NCBI GenBank assembly: GCA_003349915.1
Contig: QFXE01000010.1
Coordinates: 186,001-250,000, forward strand
Direction: 5' to 3'
Length of the DNA: 64,000 bases
Source of the DNA: an endosymbiont of Escarpia spicata
GTDB taxonomy: Bacteria > Pseudomonadota > Gammaproteobacteria > Chromatiales > Chromatiaceae
The notes under the pieces are model-generated. The model saw nothing but the letters and a program-made list of their open reading frames with translations, made no database searches and was not told the DNA's origin. This document shows, in pieces, positions 379 to 38,788 of the stretch. A program made the position numbers and the translations under genes. Numbering within the stretch: position 1 is the stretch's first letter; every line of letters starts with the position of its first letter.

Positions 379-2952
379 TTAGGCCTTACTGATCTTCACG
401 GCGCACTTCTTGTAATCCGTCTCTTTCGAGAGCGGATCGGTGGCGTCGAGGGTCAGCTTGTTGACCAGACGACCAGCGTCGAACCAGGGGACGAATACCA
501 GTCCATCAGGCACTTTATTGCGCCCTTTGGTATCCACCCGGCAGACAATCTCACCACGACGGGAGACGATCTTGGCCATGGAGCCGTTACGCAGTTTGCG
601 TTTCTTGGCGTCCTTCTTGCTCATGAAGACCACGGCATCCGGCACCGCGCGATAGAGCTCAGGTACACGCCGGGTCATGGAACCCGAGTGCCAGTGCTCA
701 AGAACACGACCGGTGCAGAGCCACAGGTTGTACTCCTTGTCCGGCATTTCCGCTGCTGGTTCGTAAGGACCAAAGATGATGTTGGCCTTCTTGTCCTTGG
801 CGCCGTAGAACTGAACTTCGCTGCCCTTCTCTACATGCGGGTCATAACCTTCGCGGAAACGCCACAGGGTCTCTTTGCCATTGATTACCGGCCAGCGCAG
901 ACCGCGCGCCTTATGATAGACCTCGAATTCCGCCATCTCATGGCCTTTCTTGGGGATACCAGGCACGGAGTTGAACAGCCGGTACTCTTCGAAAAGACCC
1001 TTCTGCACGTAGTAGCCGAAGTGATCCATCTCATCGTTGCCGTACTCGTTGCCACGATCATCAGTGACCTGCTGTTTCGGGAACTTATCAACCTGACCGT
1101 TGGCGTAGAGGACGTCATAAAGCGTCTTACCCGCATACTCAGGTTGCTTGGCGATAAGATCCTCCGGCCAGACATCCTCCACTTTGACATACTTGGCGAA
1201 CTCCATGAGCTGCCACAGGTCGGAACGAGACTCGCCAGGTCCCTGCACCTGCTGACGCCAGAACTGGGTGCGCCGCTCTGCATTACCATAAGCGCCCTCT
1301 TTCTCGATCCACATGGAGGTCGGCAGAACCAGGTCTGCCGCCTGAGCCGATACTGTGGGATAGGGGTCTGTGACGGTAATGAAGTTAGCCGGATCACGCC
1401 AACCGGGGAGAGACTCCTCGTTCATGTTGGCCGCTGCCTGCATGTTGTTGTTACACATCACCCAGAAGCAGTTCATCTTGCGGTCTTTGAGCGCACGATG
1501 CATGGCGACCGCGTGGATCAGGGTCTTGCCCATGGGCTTCCCGCTGATGTCCGATTGAGCAGCCTTATCTGACATACCGTTATGTCTTGGGATGGTGCCT
1601 GCCGGCAGCTTCCATACTTTCTCAGCGAATTTGCAGTGAGCGTCCTTCTTGACCACGAGATCAGCCGGTAGACGATGGGTAAAGGTGCCTACCTCGCGGG
1701 CGGTGCCACAAGCAGATGGTTGACCGGTCAGTGAGAAGGGGCTGTTGCCGGGTTCGGAGATCTTACCCATCAGCAGATGGATATTATAGACCAGGCCGTT
1801 CATCCAGACACCGCGGGTGTGCTGGTTCATACCCATGGTCCAGAAAGAGGAGACCTTCCTCTTGGGATCGGCATAAGCCTTGGCCAGTTTGATCAGGTTC
1901 TTCTTAGGCACACCGGACATCTTGCTGGCTTTTTCTACGGTGTACTCGGAGACCAGCTTTGCATACTCATCGAAGGCGATCTTGTTGAACTTACCCTTGT
2001 TGGGATTCTTTGCAGCCTTCTGCAACGGATGACTCGGACGCAGACCATAACCGATATCGGTAGTGGTCTTGTTGAAGTTGACGTGCTTGCCGATGAAGTC
2101 CTTGTTGTAGGCCTTATTCTGAATGATGTAATTGGCGATGAAGTTGGCGATCGCCAGATCACTCTGGGGTTCGAAGATAATTGGATTGTCCGCCAGTTCG
2201 TAACAGCGATGCTCATAGGTGGAGAGCACGTGCACTTTGCAACCTTTCTTGGTCAGTCGGGTGTCGGTGAGACGTGACCAGAGGATCGGGTGCATCTCCG
2301 CCATGTTGGCGCCCCAGAGCACAAAGTCATCGGCATGTTCCAGATCATCGTAGCAGCCCATGGGCTCATCGATACGGAAAGCGCGCATGAAGGCGCCTAC
2401 AGCAGAGGCCATGCAGTGACGTGCATTGGGATCCAGACTGTTGGAACGGAAACCCGCCTTCATGAGTTTGGCGGCGGCATAACCTTCCCAGACGGTCCAC
2501 TGTCCGGAGCCGAACATGCCGACACCCTTCGCACCTTTGGCTTTACGGGCTGCGACCCATTTCTCGGCCATGATTTTGAAGGCTTCTTCCCAGGAAACCG
2601 CTTCAAACTTGCCGTTCTTGTCATACTTGCCGTTGGTCTTGCGCAGCATCGGTTGTGTCACACGATCCTGTCCGTAGAGAATCTTCGGCAGGAAGTAACC
2701 CTTGATACAGTTCAGGCCCTTGTTGACCGGCGCGTCGGGATCACCCTGGCTGGCCACAACCTTGCCGTCTTTGACGCCCATGAGAACGCTGCAACCGGTA
2801 CCGCAGTAGCGGCAGGCTGCCTTATCCCAACGGATACCATCGTCGCCGTCAGCTGCTGTAGCGCTTTTAATCGCCGGCAGGGTTACACCCGCCACCGAAG
2901 CCGCTGCAGCAACTGCATTGCTCTTAATAAAATCACGTCTAGTTAATTTCAC
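379..2952 (-). CDS. napA: Periplasmic nitrate reductase catalytic subunit NapA
   Basis: Reduces nitrate to nitrite in the periplasm using a Mo-bis-MGD cofactor and one [4Fe-4S] cluster. The protein of 857 residues begins with a Tat signal (LTRRDFIK, then an Ala-rich core to about residue 33). The cluster cysteines are C47, C50, C54 and C82, and the Mo ligand is C180 in NARHCMASA. Length fits the family (about 830 residues plus some extra). It overlaps the upstream napD by 14 bases, so the two are probably translationally coupled; NapD is the chaperone that handles this Tat signal. NapB and NapC are not in the window and would be expected before position 1. Confidence 0.97.
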
Positions 2953-3208
2953 GTTTCATCTCCTCCAATGATTCCTCACCACCATAGTGATAAATCAGAA
3001 TTGTACTCACTACCCCTTTAACTCCATTCATCGCGTTCATCGTGTCGGACACGGGGGATACTGTTTCCCCTTCGTCTTCAACGGTAACGATCAGTTTGTC
3101 GGCATCCTCACCGCCATGGACTTCGACACCTGTCATTTTTTCCAGCCGTTTGGAGACGACAGGCCCCTTCTCCGGCTTTGTATGCACAACAAGACTACAT
3201 ATATTCAT
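2939..3208 (-). CDS. napD: NapD, chaperone for NapA maturation
   Basis: Small cytoplasmic protein of 89 residues with the NapD start (MNICSLVVH) and a ferredoxin-like fold layout. Known NapD proteins bind the Tat signal peptide of NapA and hold back export until the cofactor is loaded. It lies between napF and napA and overlaps napA. The C-terminal end ([11 protein letters not shown]) is acidic, as is usual in the family. Nothing odd is seen. Confidence 0.93.
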
Positions 3209-3239
3209 AAGATTTGAAATTCCTCCGGGTATCTAATCA

Positions 3240-3746
3240 CTATGCCGCCTGGTCTTGTTGTTGCGGCTTGAGGGTAACAGACTGCGAGGGGCAGACGGCG
3301 AAACATTCACCACAGCCTGTACAGTCTTCTGAATTGAGCAAAGGCCTGGCCTTACCGCCGACCTCCAGTTTGAAGCGTATAGCTGATTCATCACAGACCT
3401 CGCCGCAGCTACGGCAGACAACACCCTGCATTGAAAGGCAATTGTCTGCAATCACGGCTTTCAGCGGCCAGGGCGGCTGATTCAGGTCATTAAAAAAGGC
3501 CAGCACCTTATAAGTACAGGCCTTTACGCAATCCCCGCAGAATGTGCAGCCACCCTGCGAGAAATCTATTCTGGGAAATCCACCGGGTCCCCGCTGGATG
3601 ATATGTTGCGGACATTCTGAGATGCAATCGTCACATCGTTCGCACTTTTCGACGAATTCCGCTTCAGCTTTTGACCATGGTGGTCTGATAGAGGACTGAG
3701 TCCCACGCAGGTCGCCACGAAGAAATTGTGTTCTGTTAACTGACAC
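3240..3746 (-). CDS. napF: NapF, cytoplasmic ferredoxin-type protein
   Basis: Iron-sulfur protein of the nap operon with several [4Fe-4S] motifs: CERCDDCISECP, CTFCGDCVKACT, an unusual CRSCGEVC, and CTGCGECFAVCP. NapF is thought to act in NapA cluster or cofactor assembly in the cytoplasm. The start is uncertain: a TTG at 3797 would give 185 residues, but an FNR-type palindrome centred at 3813.5 would put the transcript start near 3772. I therefore prefer the GTG at 3746 (168 residues, beginning SVNRTQFLRG, close to the usual NapF start). No strong Shine-Dalgarno precedes either. First gene of the nap operon. Confidence 0.88.
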   Translation of the reverse strand: MSVNRTQFLRGDLRGTQSSIRPPWSKAEAEFVEKCERCDDCISECPQHIIQRGPGGFPRIDFSQGGCTFCGDCVKACTYKVLAFFNDLNQPPWPLKAVIADNCLSMQGVVCRSCGEVCDESAIRFKLEVGGKARPLLNSEDCTGCGECFAVCPSQSVTLKPQQQDQAA

Positions 3747-4034: not shown

Positions 4035-4679
4035 CTACTTTTTTAACGCCCATACTGCTGCCTCAACCCGCGAATGCAGATTGAGTTTTTTCAGCAGATG
4101 CTTAACGTGGACCTTAACCGTTCCCTCGGAAATATCCAGCGCCTGGGCGATTAATTTGTTACTCCTGCCACAAGCAATCTGATCCAGAATCTCCCGTTCA
4201 CGGGTGGTCAGCCCTGCAAGAGCCACAGATTGTGGCGATTTTTCCTCTCCACGAAGGGCCTGGGCAAGTAACTGGGTCAGTTGCTCACTGATGACAATTT
4301 CCCCTTTGACCGCTTTACGGAGCGATCTGAGTATATCCTCAGGCTCCATATCTTTTAACAGATAACCATCCGCACCCTGGCGCAGCGCAGCAATGACATC
4401 CTCCTCATTATCAGAAACCGTAAGCATCAAGATCCGCGCATCGAGATTTTCATCCTTGATCGCCCGCAGGGTTTCGATGCCGTTCATTCCCTTCATATTG
4501 ATATCCAACAGGATCAAGTCCGGTTTGATACGCTTTGCAAGCGTCAGACCATCGAAACCATTTGCGGCTTCACCTGCGAGCGTCAGAGATTCCTCCATAT
4601 CTATCAAGTCTGCCACGCCCTTCCGGAACAGAGGATGATCGTCAATGGCAAGTACAGTGCTAAGCTTTGTTTCTGGCAT
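4035..4679 (-). CDS. narL: NarL/NarP-type nitrate response regulator
   Basis: Two-domain regulator of 214 residues. The receiver domain has the acidic pair D13-D14, the phospho-acceptor D59 in LLDINMKGMNG, and K109 in YLLKDME. The C-terminal LuxR-type helix-turn-helix spans about residues 150-207 (LTTREREILDQIACGRSNK). The start overlaps the last 20 bases of narX, so sensor and regulator are co-translated. Likely targets are the nap promoter heptamers at 3868-3907. NarP cannot be told apart from NarL by sequence alone. Confidence 0.93.
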   Translation of the reverse strand: MPETKLSTVLAIDDHPLFRKGVADLIDMEESLTLAGEAANGFDGLTLAKRIKPDLILLDINMKGMNGIETLRAIKDENLDARILMLTVSDNEEDVIAALRQGADGYLLKDMEPEDILRSLRKAVKGEIVISEQLTQLLAQALRGEEKSPQSVALAGLTTREREILDQIACGRSNKLIAQALDISEGTVKVHVKHLLKKLNLHSRVEAAVWALKK

Positions 4680-6606
4680 TATTCATCTTCTGAAAGAGAT
4701 TTTCATGGGATAAGGTATGGTCACTGCCAGAAATGCTGAATGTCAACTCGATTCTAGTCCCGCCGCTATCCGTCTCTGTAATCGATAGTTCACCACCCAG
4801 CCATGCGGCGCGTTCCGTCATGATCGTCAGGCCATAATGCTGCATCATATCGCCGTTTTCACCGGTGATGCCAATGCCGTCATCTTCGACCCGAACTCTG
4901 ACAATGCCATCGGGCTGGCACTCAAGCAGCACTTGAGCGGTTGTTGCTCTGGCATGTCTGATTACGTTTGAAAGTGCTTCACGTACGATTTGTATGACAT
5001 GAACCTCCGCATTGGGGCTGAATCTGCAGTTTGCGATCCGGTCAACGAGTTCAACCCGCATACCACTTCTGTCGGCATATTCGCGGACGGTATTTTCCAG
5101 CGTAGCCATGAGTCCTGCCTCATTGACCCGTAACCGAAATGAAGTCAGTAATTCCCGCAGTTGCCGATAGGCACCATTGAGCGCCGAGCGCAGGACTTGA
5201 GTGATGGAGAGAATACTCTCTTGGTCATGCTCTTCGGATACACTCTTTTCCAGACGGCTGACCTGTATTTTGAGGTAGGAGAGAGATTGGGCAATCGAAT
5301 CGTGTAACTCCCGGGCAATCACACTGCGCTCCTCCATGAGTGACAGCATCCGGCCTTGTGATGCACGCTGAGCCACATTGATAGACAGGGCAATGTGGCT
5401 GGCCACGGCTTCCAACAGGCGCTGCTGCCACTCTTCAAGCGCCTCTTTCTCGGAAAATTCAACCAGGAGCACACCAAACTGTTCCGCTTGATCTCGGATC
5501 GGAGTGGAAAACACATTGACCCTTTTGCCATCGATAGTGTCGGCACCGAAGGTGTGAGTGGTGCCATCTCTGATGCAACGCTGGCAATTGCCCAGCAGAT
5601 CTGCCTGCCGCCTGTTGTTGAGCGAATTTGTCGAGGCCAGCTGGTAGCCACTCGCATCACCGGGTCTGCCCAGACAGATCGTGCCGCTATTGACCCCGAT
5701 CAGATCCTCAATGTCGTGAATGAGCGCTACCTGCACCTCACTTTCCAGGGATGAATCGTTCAACCGTCTGGTTGTCTTGTAAAGCAGCTCCAGAGAACGG
5801 TTGCTTCGCTCCAGATGTGCAGTCTGCTCTTGAACGCGCGTCTCCAGATCCGAATAGATCTTGGACAGATCCTCCGCCATTACGTTGAACGCATGACCAA
5901 GCTGGCCTAGTTCGTCTTCGCTGAGGTATCTGCTTCTTACCGTAAAGTCCCCATGTCGAGCCGCCCGCGCGCAGGCCAGTAGATCGCGGAGCGGCCTCAA
6001 CACATTGATGTGCAACAGAAAGAGACTGACCAACGCCACAAGGAGAATCAGAATCAGTGAAAAAATCTGGATGATGCGTAGCTGAGAATTTTTCTCCTCA
6101 GCATCGAGTTCAAGCACTTTCACGAAGTGGTGGATGCGATTCACAAATCCATCCACATTCGAAAGGAAGTACGCCTGTTGCTTGGTGACCTCGTGCCGAA
6201 TATCAGAAAAATCCGAATTGAGCGCAAGCAATTCCAGGTAGACGCGAAGATGGGGGAAGATATCAGTCTGCCACTGACTTGCCACCGCCTGATATGCTGC
6301 CTGCACCCGTTTGCTGGGTCCTTTCTCCAGAACATTGTGGATGCGGGGGCTGAATAACCGCTCTTCGAACTCGTCGATCAGATCCTCGGTTGTCGAAACA
6401 GGTTTTACCGTATCATCTGAGGGACCGTGAACCAGACTGCTGGCTATTCGATAGGATTGCATGCGCAGGGTGCCAGCCTGGTTGATGGCGGCGGCAAATC
6501 CCTCTGTAGTCTCCGCCATAAAGACCGAAATCAGCATACTGATGACCGCCAGGCCCAAAATGGTCATCATGGCGATTCCAAACCGAAGGAGTAATGAACG
6601 GTTCAC
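4660..6606 (-). CDS. narX: NarX-type nitrate/nitrite sensor histidine kinase
   Basis: Membrane sensor of 648 residues. TM1 is at about 9-30, followed by the nitrate-binding P-box (AAAINQAGTLRMQSYRI, 38-54). The periplasmic domain runs to TM2 at about 177-199, then HAMP, a coiled signalling helix, and a GAF-like domain (about 275-410) containing a Cys pair in CQRCIRDG. The HisKA_3 dimerisation domain has phospho-acceptor H435 in ARELHDSIAQS, and the HATPase domain contains VEDDGIGI. The domain order is that of NarX/NarQ. It is the first gene of the narXL pair. Confidence 0.95.
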   Translation of the reverse strand: MNRSLLLRFGIAMMTILGLAVISMLISVFMAETTEGFAAAINQAGTLRMQSYRIASSLVHGPSDDTVKPVSTTEDLIDEFEERLFSPRIHNVLEKGPSKRVQAAYQAVASQWQTDIFPHLRVYLELLALNSDFSDIRHEVTKQQAYFLSNVDGFVNRIHHFVKVLELDAEEKNSQLRIIQIFSLILILLVALVSLFLLHINVLRPLRDLLACARAARHGDFTVRSRYLSEDELGQLGHAFNVMAEDLSKIYSDLETRVQEQTAHLERSNRSLELLYKTTRRLNDSSLESEVQVALIHDIEDLIGVNSGTICLGRPGDASGYQLASTNSLNNRRQADLLGNCQRCIRDGTTHTFGADTIDGKRVNVFSTPIRDQAEQFGVLLVEFSEKEALEEWQQRLLEAVASHIALSINVAQRASQGRMLSLMEERSVIARELHDSIAQSLSYLKIQVSRLEKSVSEEHDQESILSITQVLRSALNGAYRQLRELLTSFRLRVNEAGLMATLENTVREYADRSGMRVELVDRIANCRFSPNAEVHVIQIVREALSNVIRHARATTAQVLLECQPDGIVRVRVEDDGIGITGENGDMMQHYGLTIMTERAAWLGGELSITETDSGGTRIELTFSISGSDHTLSHENLFQKMNNARNKA

Positions 6607-21530: not shown

Positions 21531-22517
21531 TCACAAGTATTGATCGCGCAAGACTGGATGCACAATTTTTCCACCCGAAACATTAACTGCAGACGACAGC
21601 ACTTCGTCCTCTACCAGCTTTCCGGCAGCCAGACGTTGCAGATAGGGAAGCAGTGCAGCGGAGAGGGTTTGCGAGGCACTACGGGGTACGGCACCCGGCA
21701 TATTCGTCACTCCGAAATGGATAATACCGTCCACCATAAAAGTGGGTGACTCGTAGGTCGTCGGGCGGGTTGTCTCAATACATCCTCCCTGATCCACCGA
21801 GATATCGATGACCACACTACCCGCCTGCATGCTCGCCACTTGGGCTTTGGAAACCAGGTGCGGTGCTTTGGCACCGGGAATCAACACCGCACCGATGAGA
21901 AGATCGGCTCCCGCAACAGCAGCGGAGATACTTGTCGAATAGGGATAAAGCGCCGTGACATTGTCACCGACGGCGCGCATTGCGGCCATGCGTTCCCGTT
22001 GCCGGTCAAACACTGTCACCTCTGCACCCATGGCAGCGGGAAGCCCGCCCAGCAGGATTCCCTTTCCGCCTGCCGGCTGATGCAGCAGCCCTGTACCTAT
22101 CTGCACGGCCAGGCGACCGGCGATATCACTCATCGGCGCCAACACCGGTAATCCGCCTCTATCCGCTAGTGTCTCAAAAGCCACTGCGGTGACGCCGGAT
22201 TCCAACAGTTGATGGGTCAGTTGGGAATTGGCTGCAAGATGCAGAAAGCAGAATAGCAGGTGATCCCGCCGCAGCATCTCCGGTTCCCCGGCAAAAGGCT
22301 CCTTCACCTTGACGATTATTTCAGTCTGACCATAAAGCGCTTCGGCATCCGGCAGAAGCGTGACACCCAGCTGGGTATAAGACTCATCAGGATAGCCGCT
22401 TGCTACACCAGCACCCGCCTCAAGAAAGAGTTCATGGCCCGCACGAGCCAGTTCGGCACAAGCCTCCGGAACCAGCCCGACACGGGCCTCCAGTGGCTTG
22501 GTCTCTTTCGGTCGCAT
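21531..22517 (-). CDS. ald: Alanine dehydrogenase lacking the NAD-binding loop segment
   Basis: Belongs to the Ald family, which interconverts L-alanine and pyruvate plus ammonia with NAD. Present are RVGLVPE, the substrate Lys in VKVKEP, the His in CFLHLA, LAPMSDIAGRL and the catalytic Asp in VDQGGCIE. After ILLGGLP the sequence jumps directly to AAMGAEVTVFDR: some 22-28 residues that normally hold the Rossmann GxGxxG loop are missing without a frameshift. The N-terminal strand (usually IGVPKE) is also abnormal (MRPKETKP). A start at 22577 would add 20 unlike residues. Probably inactive as a dehydrogenase, or an assembly or deletion artefact. Confidence 0.8.
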   Translation of the reverse strand: MRPKETKPLEARVGLVPEACAELARAGHELFLEAGAGVASGYPDESYTQLGVTLLPDAEALYGQTEIIVKVKEPFAGEPEMLRRDHLLFCFLHLAANSQLTHQLLESGVTAVAFETLADRGGLPVLAPMSDIAGRLAVQIGTGLLHQPAGGKGILLGGLPAAMGAEVTVFDRQRERMAAMRAVGDNVTALYPYSTSISAAVAGADLLIGAVLIPGAKAPHLVSKAQVASMQAGSVVIDISVDQGGCIETTRPTTYESPTFMVDGIIHFGVTNMPGAVPRSASQTLSAALLPYLQRLAAGKLVEDEVLSSAVNVSGGKIVHPVLRDQYL

Positions 22518-22753
22518 ATTCTCAATTTTACCCTTTGAGTAATCTTCTGAAACAGTAAGAGCGACCCATTTACCCATTCAAAACAGGGTGAGTCACCTTT
22601 ACCCGGGGCAGATCATTTCGTAAAATCCGAGGATTGAGCCCGGTACTTGAAACCTCTGTTTCCATCCCCACATTTCACTGTTATCAAGCTTAAAGACTGT
22701 TAACCCGTTTTGGAAAGTTCCAGTGCGCTGGAATCCCATCAGATCTGGAGTAA

Positions 22754-23788: not shown

Positions 23789-24522
23789 CTACATCTCATG
23801 CTCGTGCACCATCTGGCCTAACACAAAGGCGCAGAGCAAAACCTGCTGAAAACGATTCAGCCCACTGAACTCCAGACCGTGGATATAGTAACTCCCACCT
23901 TCAGGCGTCTCTATTTCGCGAACACTGCGTAGGATACCCAGTAGCTGGAGTACATCATCACCATCGCAACTTTTTATCGATAACTGCAACTGTAGCGTCT
24001 CACCCACCTCTCCCATCGGCTTTTCACTGGAAAGACGGGCACCGGTCCGGCTCAGGTCGAGAACTTTGGCACGATTGACATGCTTTGAATCATCCGGGTC
24101 CTTTGTGTTGCGAACAACCGACTGAAGTGAGGTATGTACCCGTGGCGCATTTCTGACCACCGCACTTTCAACCTCTTCCGGGTATGCCAGGTGCAGATGA
24201 GGGTAGGGTTTTGATGAGGTCTGCAACACTTTTGCCACGAACCCAAAAATATTGCTGCTTTGGAGCACGCGAACAGTGAACATCTGACCCTCCCTGGCCA
24301 GGATTGCCTTGCCTTGCCTTGCTTTCTGGGCGTGGTGATAACCAGGCTCTCGTTGGGAAGATATCCTATCAATTTGACCGCATACCGGTCCTGATTTTCA
24401 CTGGGAGGGGCATACTGCAGCTGCAATACCTCTCCTATCTGCAAGTTCGTTACAATGTCTGACAAGGGATTTTCCTGGATTGCCCCATAGTTGAGGACAC
24501 TACGTTGCCGCAATGCTGACAA
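23789..24522 (-). pseudogene. YcgR-like PilZ protein split by a frameshift at a pentanucleotide repeat
   Basis: Two frames together make one flagellar-brake-type protein. The first (from a TTG at 24522) encodes the N-terminal domain to ITTPRKQGKA. The second (from 24283) continues with FTVRVLQSSNIFGFVAKV and a PilZ domain with the c-di-GMP motifs RNAPR and DLSRTGAR. The break falls in a TTGCC repeat (24305-24323, 3.8 copies). Removing one unit of five bases restores one frame reading KQGKAILAREGQMFTVRV. The gene may be off by slipped-strand mutation, permanently broken, or a sequencing error. No ATG is seen for the first frame, and a stop lies just upstream of the TTG. Confidence 0.8.
24305..24323. 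repeat. TTGCC pentanucleotide tandem repeat inside the PilZ gene
   Basis: Three complete TTGCC units plus TTGC. The unit length is not a multiple of three, so each gain or loss shifts the frame; 2.8 copies would give an intact coding sequence on the minus strand. Confidence 0.9.
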
Positions 24523-25367: not shown

Positions 25368-26112
25368 CGACCAGGTTTTCACAAATAATCCAACACTCGC
25401 GCTCTATCTGAGCCAGGAACACGACTGTTCCTATCTACCTGGCCAACAAGCCAGGACGCTTTTTCTGGATCCCTCCACTTCAGTCGACGCGCTGCTCTAC
25501 CAATTTCTGATCGACCAGGGATTTCGTCGCAGTGGCGCCCATCTCTACCGGCCTGCCTGCAATTCATGCAACGCCTGTACTTCACTTCGCCTGCCCGTTG
25601 CCGAATTCAGACCAAACCGCAGTCAACGACGCTGCTGGAAGCGGAATTTTGGCCATTTCTCCATCACGCCATGTCCAGCTGAATTCGATGAGGAGCATTA
25701 CGCACTCTATGTAGAATACCTGCAACAACGTCACCCCGACGGATCCATGAGCAACACTGATCCCCAGCAGTATCTGAGTTTCCTCACCACGCCATGGGCA
25801 GAGACAGTGTTTTATGAATTTCGATATAAAGACAGACTAGTGGCCGTTGCAGCCACCGACCTCCTCCCGGAAGGGATCTCCTCCGTCTACACATTCTTTG
25901 CCCCCGGCATGCAGACCGAGGGCATTGGTGTATTTGCGCTGCTCTGGCAGATTCAACATGCTGAAAAGCTTGGGCGGCGCTGGCTCTATCCCGGATACTG
26001 GATCAGCAACTGCAGCAAAATGAATTATAAATCCCGCTATCGTCCACTGGAGGCCTGGAATGGTCAGGAGTGGCTACACTTTGGGAGTGGCGAGACACTG
26101 CTCTTGCCATAA
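25360..26112 (+). CDS. bpt: Bpt, aspartate/glutamate leucyltransferase (arginyltransferase family)
   Basis: Protein of 250 residues of the Ate1/Bpt family that adds Leu (or Arg) to N-terminal Asp/Glu. The N-terminal cysteine cluster is seen in [18 protein letters not shown], with the preceding C in EHDCSYLPG; the C-terminal domain contains [20 protein letters not shown] chose the ATG at 25360 because a longer frame begins inside aat. Forms an N-degron pair with aat. Confidence 0.93.
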
Positions 26113-26267
26113 AACACTCTCTTCATTCCCGTTATTTCTCGGAGCGAACAGGGAAATAGTGGATGTCAGGCTTGCTTTACGCTGAATTATGCTGATAATG
26201 GCGTTCTTGATTTTCAGGGGTCCGGCGAGCTAGCGCCCCGAACTTCCATAATTGTTCAGGTAACAGC

Positions 26268-26486
26268 ATGGCGAAAGAAGACTTTATCGAAATGGAAGGC
26301 ACCGTTACCGAAACGTTGCCGAACACCATGTTCCGTGTGGAGCTGGAGAACGGTCACGTAGTAACAGCCCACATCTCAGGTAAGATGCGCAAGCACTACA
26401 TCCGCATTCTCACCGGTGACAAGGTTACCGTTCAGCTTACCCCCTACGATCTGTCGAAGGGGCGCATTACCTATCGCGCACGCTGA
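26268..26486 (+). CDS. infA: Translation initiation factor IF-1
   Basis: S1/OB-fold protein of 72 residues, the exact family size, beginning [13 protein letters not shown] and containing [14 protein letters not shown]. Binds the ribosomal A site during initiation. The leader contains a small hairpin, GGCG-agctag-CGCC, about 35 bases upstream. Convergent with clpA. Confidence 0.97.
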
Positions 26487-29117: not shown

Positions 29118-29565
29118 AGTAAGGAATATTAGCAGGCTGTTACTGTTAGCACGACCGAATCGAAGAGAACAAAATTCACTATTTCTCTCCGGTTTTGCGA
29201 TATACGGGGCCTAACAGGGTGATGAAATCCGTAAAGCAGGAACGCCTCGACTTGTTTGAGTCATTCCAATCGGTTCAGTTCAGTTCAGTTCAGTTGATAA
29301 GTATATCCTACTATTTTACTTGGGCAATAGTTGACCAAATCGAATGGTTCACTATACTTAGCCATCAGCGGTTTTGTTTCATGCTGCCGAAATCAAAGCC
29401 GCCGGTTTAGCCGGTGAATTGCCGGCGCGGGTTTTTACGGGGCAAAGACCATCGAAAAATCCTGACAATAACAGAACGGGTTCCGGTACATTCGGATCGT
29501 TCCTAATAATGAAATTTATAAATTTTTCACCAATTCGGGGCATTGAACGCGAGGAGTATCAAGTT
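29118..29565 (+). promoter_or_regulatory. Promoter and long leader of the cold-shock gene
   Basis: No gene is seen in this gap of about 450 bases. A sigma-70-like promoter TTGACC-N16-TATACT lies at 29331-29358, which gives a leader of about 200 bases, as in cspA-type genes. The leader contains a hairpin GCCGG-tgaattg-CCGGC followed by GCGGGTTTTT (about 29411-29438), which looks like an attenuator. A strong ribosome site GAGGAG lies 9 bases before the ATG. A GTTCA tandem repeat precedes the promoter. Confidence 0.6.
29273..29295. repeat. GTTCA pentanucleotide tandem repeat upstream of the cold-shock promoter
   Basis: Four complete GTTCA units plus GTT, ending about 35 bases before the -35 box of the promoter at 29331. 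Copy number changes here would alter spacing to any upstream binding site but not a coding frame. Confidence 0.85.
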
Positions 29566-37421: not shown

Positions 37422-37938
37422 TCAAGCGCCCACTTTTCAGAATGCAATCCTTGGTGTTACCAGCGACACTTTTTACCTGCAGGATCCCGCCGAAAACCTT
37501 GCCGTTGCATCACGGCTTGTCGAACAGGCAAATCGCGAGTTGCAGATATTCACCCGCGATCTCGATCCACCGGTATTTGACAAAACAGCGTTCCTTGAAC
37601 CTTTTAAGCGATTAGCGCTCAACTCCCGTTTTGCCAGAATACGGATAGTGCTGCAGGACAACAGTGCGATACAAAAAACGGGGCATCGCCTGGTCACACT
37701 GGCGCAACGTTTGACCACCACCGTTGAAATCAGAAAAACTGGCGAGACCTACCAACAATTCCCAGAGAATTTCATGCTGGTGGATGGTTGCGGTTATCTG
37801 CACCGGTCACTGCCGACCCGCTACGATGCCGTTGCTGCCTTCAATGCCCGACCAAGGGTTCATCAACTGACAGAGATATTCGATGAAGCCTGGGAGACTG
37901 GGGAGCCGGATGCTGAACTCTGGCGGCTACATTTGTAG
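37414..37938 (+). CDS. Conserved protein of unknown function downstream of GNAT
   Basis: Protein of 174 residues with no signal peptide. Conserved-looking blocks are ELQIFTRDLDPPVFD, RFARIRIVLQD, GHRLVTLAQRL and YLHRSLPTRYDA. The order of strands and the RDLDPPVFD segment recall half of a phospholipase-D-like fold without the HKD motif; this is a structural guess. It is translationally coupled to the GNAT gene, a pairing I believe occurs in other gammaproteobacteria. Confidence 0.75.
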   Translation: MPDQAPTFQNAILGVTSDTFYLQDPAENLAVASRLVEQANRELQIFTRDLDPPVFDKTAFLEPFKRLALNSRFARIRIVLQDNSAIQKTGHRLVTLAQRLTTTVEIRKTGETYQQFPENFMLVDGCGYLHRSLPTRYDAVAAFNARPRVHQLTEIFDEAWETGEPDAELWRLHL

Positions 37939-37990
37939 TGGAACTCATAACTGCATAACCTGTTTCAGCAATCCATCGTTGGAAAACGCC

Positions 37991-38788
37991 ATGACCCAAT
38001 CCATCTACCTGATTATCATCCTCCTGTTTCTTCCCCTCCAGACGCAGGCAGAGAGTTTGGGAATATTCGAACTCAAGGGCAGGACACACCAGGAGATGAT
38101 CCCTCTGCTCAAACCCTTCGTGGGTCCTGAAGGCACAATCGAAGGGATGCACAACAAGCTGATTATTCGCACCTCGCCAGAACGATTGGCTGAGATAAAA
38201 AAGATCATCAACGAGTTCGACCATGCGCCAAGACGGATGTTGATCCATGTTCGTGAACATGCACCCTCACAGCAGCAGAAACAGCAGGTCGAACTTCACG
38301 CCGGAAACGACAGCATCAGAATTGGCACTCAATCGGAACGAGGCAGTATCAAACGCTACACAACCGAAAGCCACACTGATGCCAGCCGGACGATACAGAC
38401 CCTGGAGGGTCAATCCGCCTTCATAAAAACGGGTATCAGCCGGCCTGTTGAAACAGGAACCGGGATAATAGCTGGTCCCATTGTCGGATATCAGAGCACT
38501 ACGGAGTATCAGGATATCAGCTCCGGTTTCCATGTAACACCGCAGATCATCGGTGATCACATCAGACTGGAGATCACCAACCGCCACGCACAACCCGGAC
38601 GCCGTCAGGAAACAGTTGAGCACACCGAAAGCACAACGGTGGTGAGTGTCAAACCTGGAGAATGGATTCCCCTCAGCAGCACCGGCCGAGCCGGTTCGAA
38701 TAGAATATCCGACATCGGCCTGCAGGCAAGAACCCGCACCAGCGACGAGCACTCGACCTGGATCAAGGTGGAACTACTGGACAGATAA
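37991..38788 (+). CDS. Exported secretin-like (NolW-type) protein
   Basis: Protein of 265 residues with a signal peptide (to about 20, LQTQAES). A secretin N-domain-like segment follows (GRTHQEMIPLLKPF ... MHNKLIIRTSPERLAEIKKIINEFD). The C-terminal part (GPIVGYQSTTEYQDISSGFHVTPQIIGDHIRLEI in outline) resembles the beta-lip portion of secretins but is far too short to form a full gate. I chose the ATG at 37991, ahead of the signal peptide; the upstream frame overlaps the previous gene. No other type II/IV secretion genes are nearby. Confidence 0.8.
   Translation: MTQSIYLIIILLFLPLQTQAESLGIFELKGRTHQEMIPLLKPFVGPEGTIEGMHNKLIIRTSPERLAEIKKIINEFDHAPRRMLIHVREHAPSQQQKQQVELHAGNDSIRIGTQSERGSIKRYTTESHTDASRTIQTLEGQSAFIKTGISRPVETGTGIIAGPIVGYQSTTEYQDISSGFHVTPQIIGDHIRLEITNRHAQPGRRQETVEHTESTTVVSVKPGEWIPLSSTGRAGSNRISDIGLQARTRTSDEHSTWIKVELLDR

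Follow-up and report, generated by a model that had tools for sequence, protein, structure and literature searches.

The YcgR-type gene of this Escarpia spicata endosymbiont, the only one of its kind found in the genome, is split into two minus-strand frames at a short TTGCC tract, and with reasonable, although by no means full, confidence we regard this split as a recent and ordinary frameshift, caused by slippage in a short 'mutable' repeat of a single-copy gene. All five congeners carry one 5-base unit fewer at the same site, and in all of them the gene is whole.

Genomes and sequences compared

The window, i.e. the whole stretch of 64,000 nucleotides analysed here, lies on contig 22 (bases 186001-250000) of a draft genome of 4,062,513 bases in 23 contigs. 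It was compared with five congeners (G001-G005), each species being represented by one genome; four of the five are named as tubeworm symbionts, the vestimentiferan hosts being Lamellibrachia barhami (G001), Escarpia laminata (G002) and L. anaximandri (G003 and G004). The order-wide survey covered 210 genomes, this symbiont counted in, and 74 of them have a match to the YcgR-type gene; G087, G101 and G091 gave partial matches only and were left out of the judgement on breakage. At the TTGCC site itself, 29 other homologues were read.

The TTGCC tract and the split gene

The coordinates of the split gene, its parts and a damaged gene in its neighbourhood are summarized in Table 1.

Table 1 Features of the split YcgR-type gene and of the neighbouring alanine dehydrogenase gene in the window
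Feature	Position	Strand	Remarks
(TTGCC)3.8 tract, perfect; GCAAG on the coding strand	24304-24322	-	Frameshift site; each of the five congeners has one unit fewer
5' part of the YcgR-type gene, TTG start to tract	24304-24465	-	52 native residues; PilZNR positions 1-43
Open frame holding the 5' part, 156 aa	24052-24522	-	Past the tract about 85 foreign-frame residues, stop at 24052
3' part, 164 aa, from ATG 24283	23789-24283	-	PilZNR positions 52-85 and PilZ domain
RNAPR	24140-24154	-	RxxxR; both arginines invariant in 28/28 aligned homologues
DLSRTGAR	24035-24058	-	Holds DxSxxG; D, S and G invariant in 28/28 aligned homologues
Alanine dehydrogenase (ald)	21531-22577	-	3 + 23 residues lost

The initial annotation described the tract correctly as a TTGCC repeat of 3.8 copies, but its position, given as 24305-24323, was off by one base. 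The tract falls within the YcgR-type gene where KQGKA is encoded, and in the model of the G005 protein the stretch that it encodes is found between strands 40-44 and 60-67. As had been claimed, the unit of 5 bases is not a multiple of three and lies inside the reading frame, the frame being set by the copy number.

In the five congeners, the unbroken gene occupies open frames of 237-244 codons and encodes, from a TTG start common to all five, a protein of 223 residues. The proposal that the two minus-strand frames represent one gene after the removal of a single unit is thus borne out by an intact frame, one unit shorter, in each congener; the rebuilt junction suggested at that time, KQGKAILAREGQMFTVRV, is encoded by four of them, G001 differing by ILV in place of ILA. 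The same annotation had advised comparing the locus in related genomes, and an unbroken homologue is there in every congener. Perfect 2.8 copies are seen at the tract site in three congeners (G002, G004 and G005); in the other two, the repeat is interrupted with its length unchanged, by GCAGG in G003 and GGTAAGG in G001. Among the 29 other homologues, three have perfect 2.8 copies, 26 have 2.2 or fewer, and none has more than 2.8. The shorter form is likewise found in homologues from beyond the genus; the window has therefore gained a unit, a loss in the relatives being discounted, and carries a lineage-specific 5-base insertion. The tract is absent from a generic table of indels, the filter of which merges gaps lying no more than 8 bases apart and requires every covering genome; the insertion is read from the comparisons of the site and of the frames. 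It should be noted that the repeat encodes conserved residues, the purity of the repeat itself not being kept among the homologues.

In the window, the common TTG start of the 5' part has AGGA 7 bases upstream. The ATG at 24283 is preceded, 4 bases upstream, by GGGAGGG, so that a shortened protein could be made from it. Both c-di-GMP motifs are present in the 3' piece, in agreement with the earlier statement that they are intact; we take RNAPR to be the RxxxR motif and DLSRTGAR to hold the DxSxxG motif. The genes on either side are presumably trxB-like and aat-like ones, as named by sight of the sequence. A promoter-like site upstream (24578-24550) was dismissed, two such sites having been found where 0.9 are expected, which is the chance level.

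Identity of the gene

The YcgR-type identity proposed previously is supported by Pfam, which recognizes both PilZNR ('Flagellar protein YcgR'; 67.6 bits) and PilZ (27.5 bits) in one protein of the relative L024, as well as by the invariance of the motifs in all 28 homologues. PilZNR followed by PilZ in a single protein was found in L024; the window copy consists of two frames, the break being situated in the middle of the N-terminal domain. The PilZNR match in the upstream frame scores 21.0 bits, below the Pfam cut-off of 23, and the whole domain in the five congeners scores 67.8-69.8 bits. NCBIfam names no family for either the intact relative or the window piece.

One PilZNR gene was found by the search in this genome and one in each congener, and no second PilZNR gene that might serve as a paralogous backup was found in this genome at E <= 0.001. 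The genome has six further PilZ domains as well as FliG_C; a search of the G001 genome gave no match to FliG_C. The intact G005 protein was modelled from 28 sequences (pLDDT 81.7, pTM 0.52), this model having replaced an earlier one made from 6 sequences (pLDDT 49). Its best fold matches are Bacillus subtilis MotI (5vx6) and Vibrio cholerae VCA0042 (2rde), with Escherichia coli YcgR (5y6f) at rank 11; none of these matches reaches a full-length TM score of 0.5, which may be due to an uncertain arrangement of the domains. By analogy with its family, the protein would act as a motility brake, and the gene is a probable motility or adhesion regulator.

Age of the break

The substitutions on the window branch, counted with G004 and G005 as the reference, are small in number, and the age estimate is to be read with these small counts in mind: 10 synonymous and 7 non-synonymous changes and no stops. 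The part before the tract accounts for 1 of the synonymous changes; the other 9 fall after it, together with all 7 non-synonymous ones. There are fewer non-synonymous changes than neutrality predicts (P = 0.002 for a non-synonymous share of 0.767 and P = 0.013 for a share of 0.70). The branch does not differ from the five others combined (54 synonymous and 21 non-synonymous changes; Fisher P = 0.38) or, after the tract, from G004 and G005 alone (P = 0.72). These values show purifying selection acting on the gene until recently. The pattern, with its absence of stops, suggests that, measured against the divergence from the relatives, the break is probably recent, or that the gene is often intact.

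Frequency of such repeats and breaks

An order-2 Markov null of the window yields 0.35 pentamer tracts of at least 2.8 copies per 64 kb (60 replicates). Tracts of at least 3.8 copies did not occur in any of these 60 replicates, nor in 10 replicates of an order-3 null of a 400 kb sample; the TTGCC tract is more than chance. The 400 kb sampled elsewhere in this genome contain four pentamer tracts with 2.8 to 3.0 copies, and none of that class was found in 400 kb of G005.

The window has a second pentamer repeat, the intergenic GTTCA with 4.6 copies at 29273-29295, upstream of a small gene that looks cold-shock-like by sight. At this site, 3.6 copies are present in G004, 2.6 in G002, G003 and G005, and 2.4 in G001, where the end has changed. 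Heptamer repeats of 4.7 to 9.3 copies were also observed (L051:833-897, L075:12753-12817, L077:4494-4537 and L074:11367-11399), the unit being AGGTGAA in this genome and CTGTCAC (twice) and AAAGGTT in G005; by their length, these are better candidates for phase variation.

When the relatives' open frames of at least 90 residues were compared with the window (49 from G005, 50 from G001, 48 from G002, 40 from G003 and 16 from G004), they revealed 2, 3, 2, 3 and 1 frame breaks, respectively, and the YcgR-type gene is the only window break recurring against all five relatives. The remaining breaks concern the small frames 2918-3326 and 26060-26483 or are the relative's own, as with the window gene 4660-6606 that is broken in G001. 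In the opposite direction, window frames placed on the relatives (48 on G005, 49 on G001, 45 on G002 and 39 on G003) gave 1, 2, 1 and 1 breaks. The frame 37883-38788 differs in its first 25 residues from all four congeners compared, which may be a start-codon question only. Within 37883-37960, an 8-base difference (CTGCATAA) from the same number of congeners, four of four, is located at 37951, close to where one frame ends and another begins.

Among the 73 other genomes with the gene, the frame seems interrupted in two, near residue 30 in G164, a more distant relative, and near residue 91 in G221; both places lie away from the tract site. Only the G164 gene (L112:228-888) was read directly, and either break may be an assembly fault. 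Two such cases among 73 indicate that sporadic breakage occurs. A 23-base pattern, allowing up to 3 mismatches, was searched for in the genome as a sign of a second copy of the locus with another repeat number, and its one match was the locus itself.

The mutS and mutL genes of this genome were matched over the whole or nearly the whole of their models; both look full-length, so that no mutator need be assumed, and this explanation was set aside. The mutS of G001, the L. barhami symbiont (C1:3432745-3434454), covers only profile positions 264-840, in a frame of 587 codons.

The neighbouring alanine dehydrogenase gene

The ald gene lacks the residues IGI of IGIPKE near its start as well as a stretch of 23 residues that includes GAGQAGGNAV and holds the NAD-binding GAGQAGG motif and loop; both are present in the three relatives aligned. 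Its profile match falls into two pieces (181 and 150 bits); in the five congeners, the profile is matched as a single piece with 382-398 bits, and only two of the five reach the curated cut-off of 391.85. That two genes are damaged in a stretch of 3 kb is consistent with sporadic inactivation in this lineage; trouble with the assembly at this place is a less likely reading.

Explanations of the break

If the break is a recent slippage event, replication slippage would have added one 5-base unit to the short repeat in the KQGKA codons, and a full-length c-di-GMP receptor would be absent from the sequenced symbiont genotype. Its loss would release whatever the receptor brakes, be it the flagellar motor or an adhesion output, and the internal ATG may still give rise to a shortened PilZ-only protein. 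The lengthened tract could lose the unit again, presumably at a raised rate; its selection as a switch is unsupported. Short tracts are classed, in the available text of PMC4235727, as proto-mutable or mutable, i.e. as insertion-prone but not selected for mutability.

The initial annotation saw here a candidate phase-variable switch, in which the tract gains and loses units within the symbiont population and the regulator is on with 2.8 or 5.8 copies and off with 3.8 or 4.8, for example in free-living versus host stages. A unit that is not a multiple of three within the coding frame would suit such a switch, as would two flanking frames that are both intact and under purifying selection; a pentamer, GACGA, is tabulated as hypermutable at 3 or more copies (1e-5 to 1e-2 per division; PMC4235727), and the variation of the GTTCA tract within the genus shows that pentamer tracts here do change, which leaves room for repeated switching. 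All five congeners, however, are in the 'on' state with perfect repeats in only three of them and interrupted ones in two, and, as none of the 29 other homologues exceeds 2.8 copies, a conserved contingency tract is not seen. Neither the two states nor a maintained tract was encountered among the relatives, represented by one genome per species, and 3.8 copies fall short of the PhasomeIt cut-off of 5 for penta-nucleotide repeats, given for Campylobacter in the accessible part of PMC6321876. A switch is thus judged unlikely, and its fuller form, a reversible low-copy pentamer switch of the sole YcgR-type receptor found that maintains mixed brake-on and brake-off cells for the passage between sea water and host, decidedly doubtful. 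No report of phase variation in tubeworm symbionts was found in a search of open-access full texts, nor any usable parallel in the literature for phase variation combining PilZ with a simple sequence repeat. Alternation of the tract, if it occurred, would mean that a horizontally acquired mutualist has a contingency locus.

That the extra unit stems from faulty sequencing or assembly, or from a minority allele chosen by the assembler, is rather unlikely as well. The sequence comes from a single draft assembly of 23 contigs and the ald deletion is a second oddity about 1.7 kb from the tract; yet a tract of 19 bases should be shorter than ordinary reads, the added unit is what simple slippage yields, and no other break recurs against the five relatives, with 16 to 50 genes compared per relative. 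A further reading, judged very unlikely, is that the cell tolerates the split thanks to a functional PilZ-only protein that has a ribosome-binding site of its own and starts at ATG 24283, and can dispense with the N-terminal half. The upstream GGGAGGG, the presence of both c-di-GMP motifs in the downstream piece and the continued conservation of that piece would speak for it. The piece begins, however, within PilZNR, at profile position 52 of 85, so that a misfolded stub is to be expected, and the frame runs without interruption for at least 230 codons in all 12 other genomes with a match in one of the searches. An old, decaying pseudogene would account for the broken frame and the damage to another nearby gene, but there are no further stops or frameshifts and the non-synonymous/synonymous ratio is no different from that of intact branches, which makes it extremely improbable.

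Comparison with known systems

A slippage frameshift is a known kind of event, met here in the gene for a c-di-GMP receptor. If the break is fixed, the lineage would have lost the only YcgR-type c-di-GMP receptor found and kept the flagellar FliG, which would bear on how host-acquired symbionts manage motility. The gene resembles YcgR, MotI (DgrA) and VCA0042 in the combination of PilZNR and PilZ seen in L024 and in the RxxxR and DxSxxG motifs of its homologues, and departs from them in that the window copy is split. With the translational contingency genes based on simple sequence repeats, as far as they are described in the available parts of PMC4235727 and PMC6321876, it shares a unit that is not a multiple of three within the frame and an off state brought about by a frameshift; unlike them, it has few copies, a purity that is not conserved and no alternation seen. 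No slippage analogue in mutL was found in the literature. In lacI, according to the accessible text of PMC3485313, the gain or loss of one of three tandem CTGG units forms the largest class of lacI mutations in Pseudomonas putida, this being the leading site of insertions and deletions, with gain versus loss depending on the orientation of the gene. The present case concerns a pentamer, lengthened from 2.8 to 3.8 copies in the genome of a natural symbiont, but it has in common with the lacI hotspot of P. putida and E. coli, as presented there, a short coding repeat in which one unit more or less breaks the frame.
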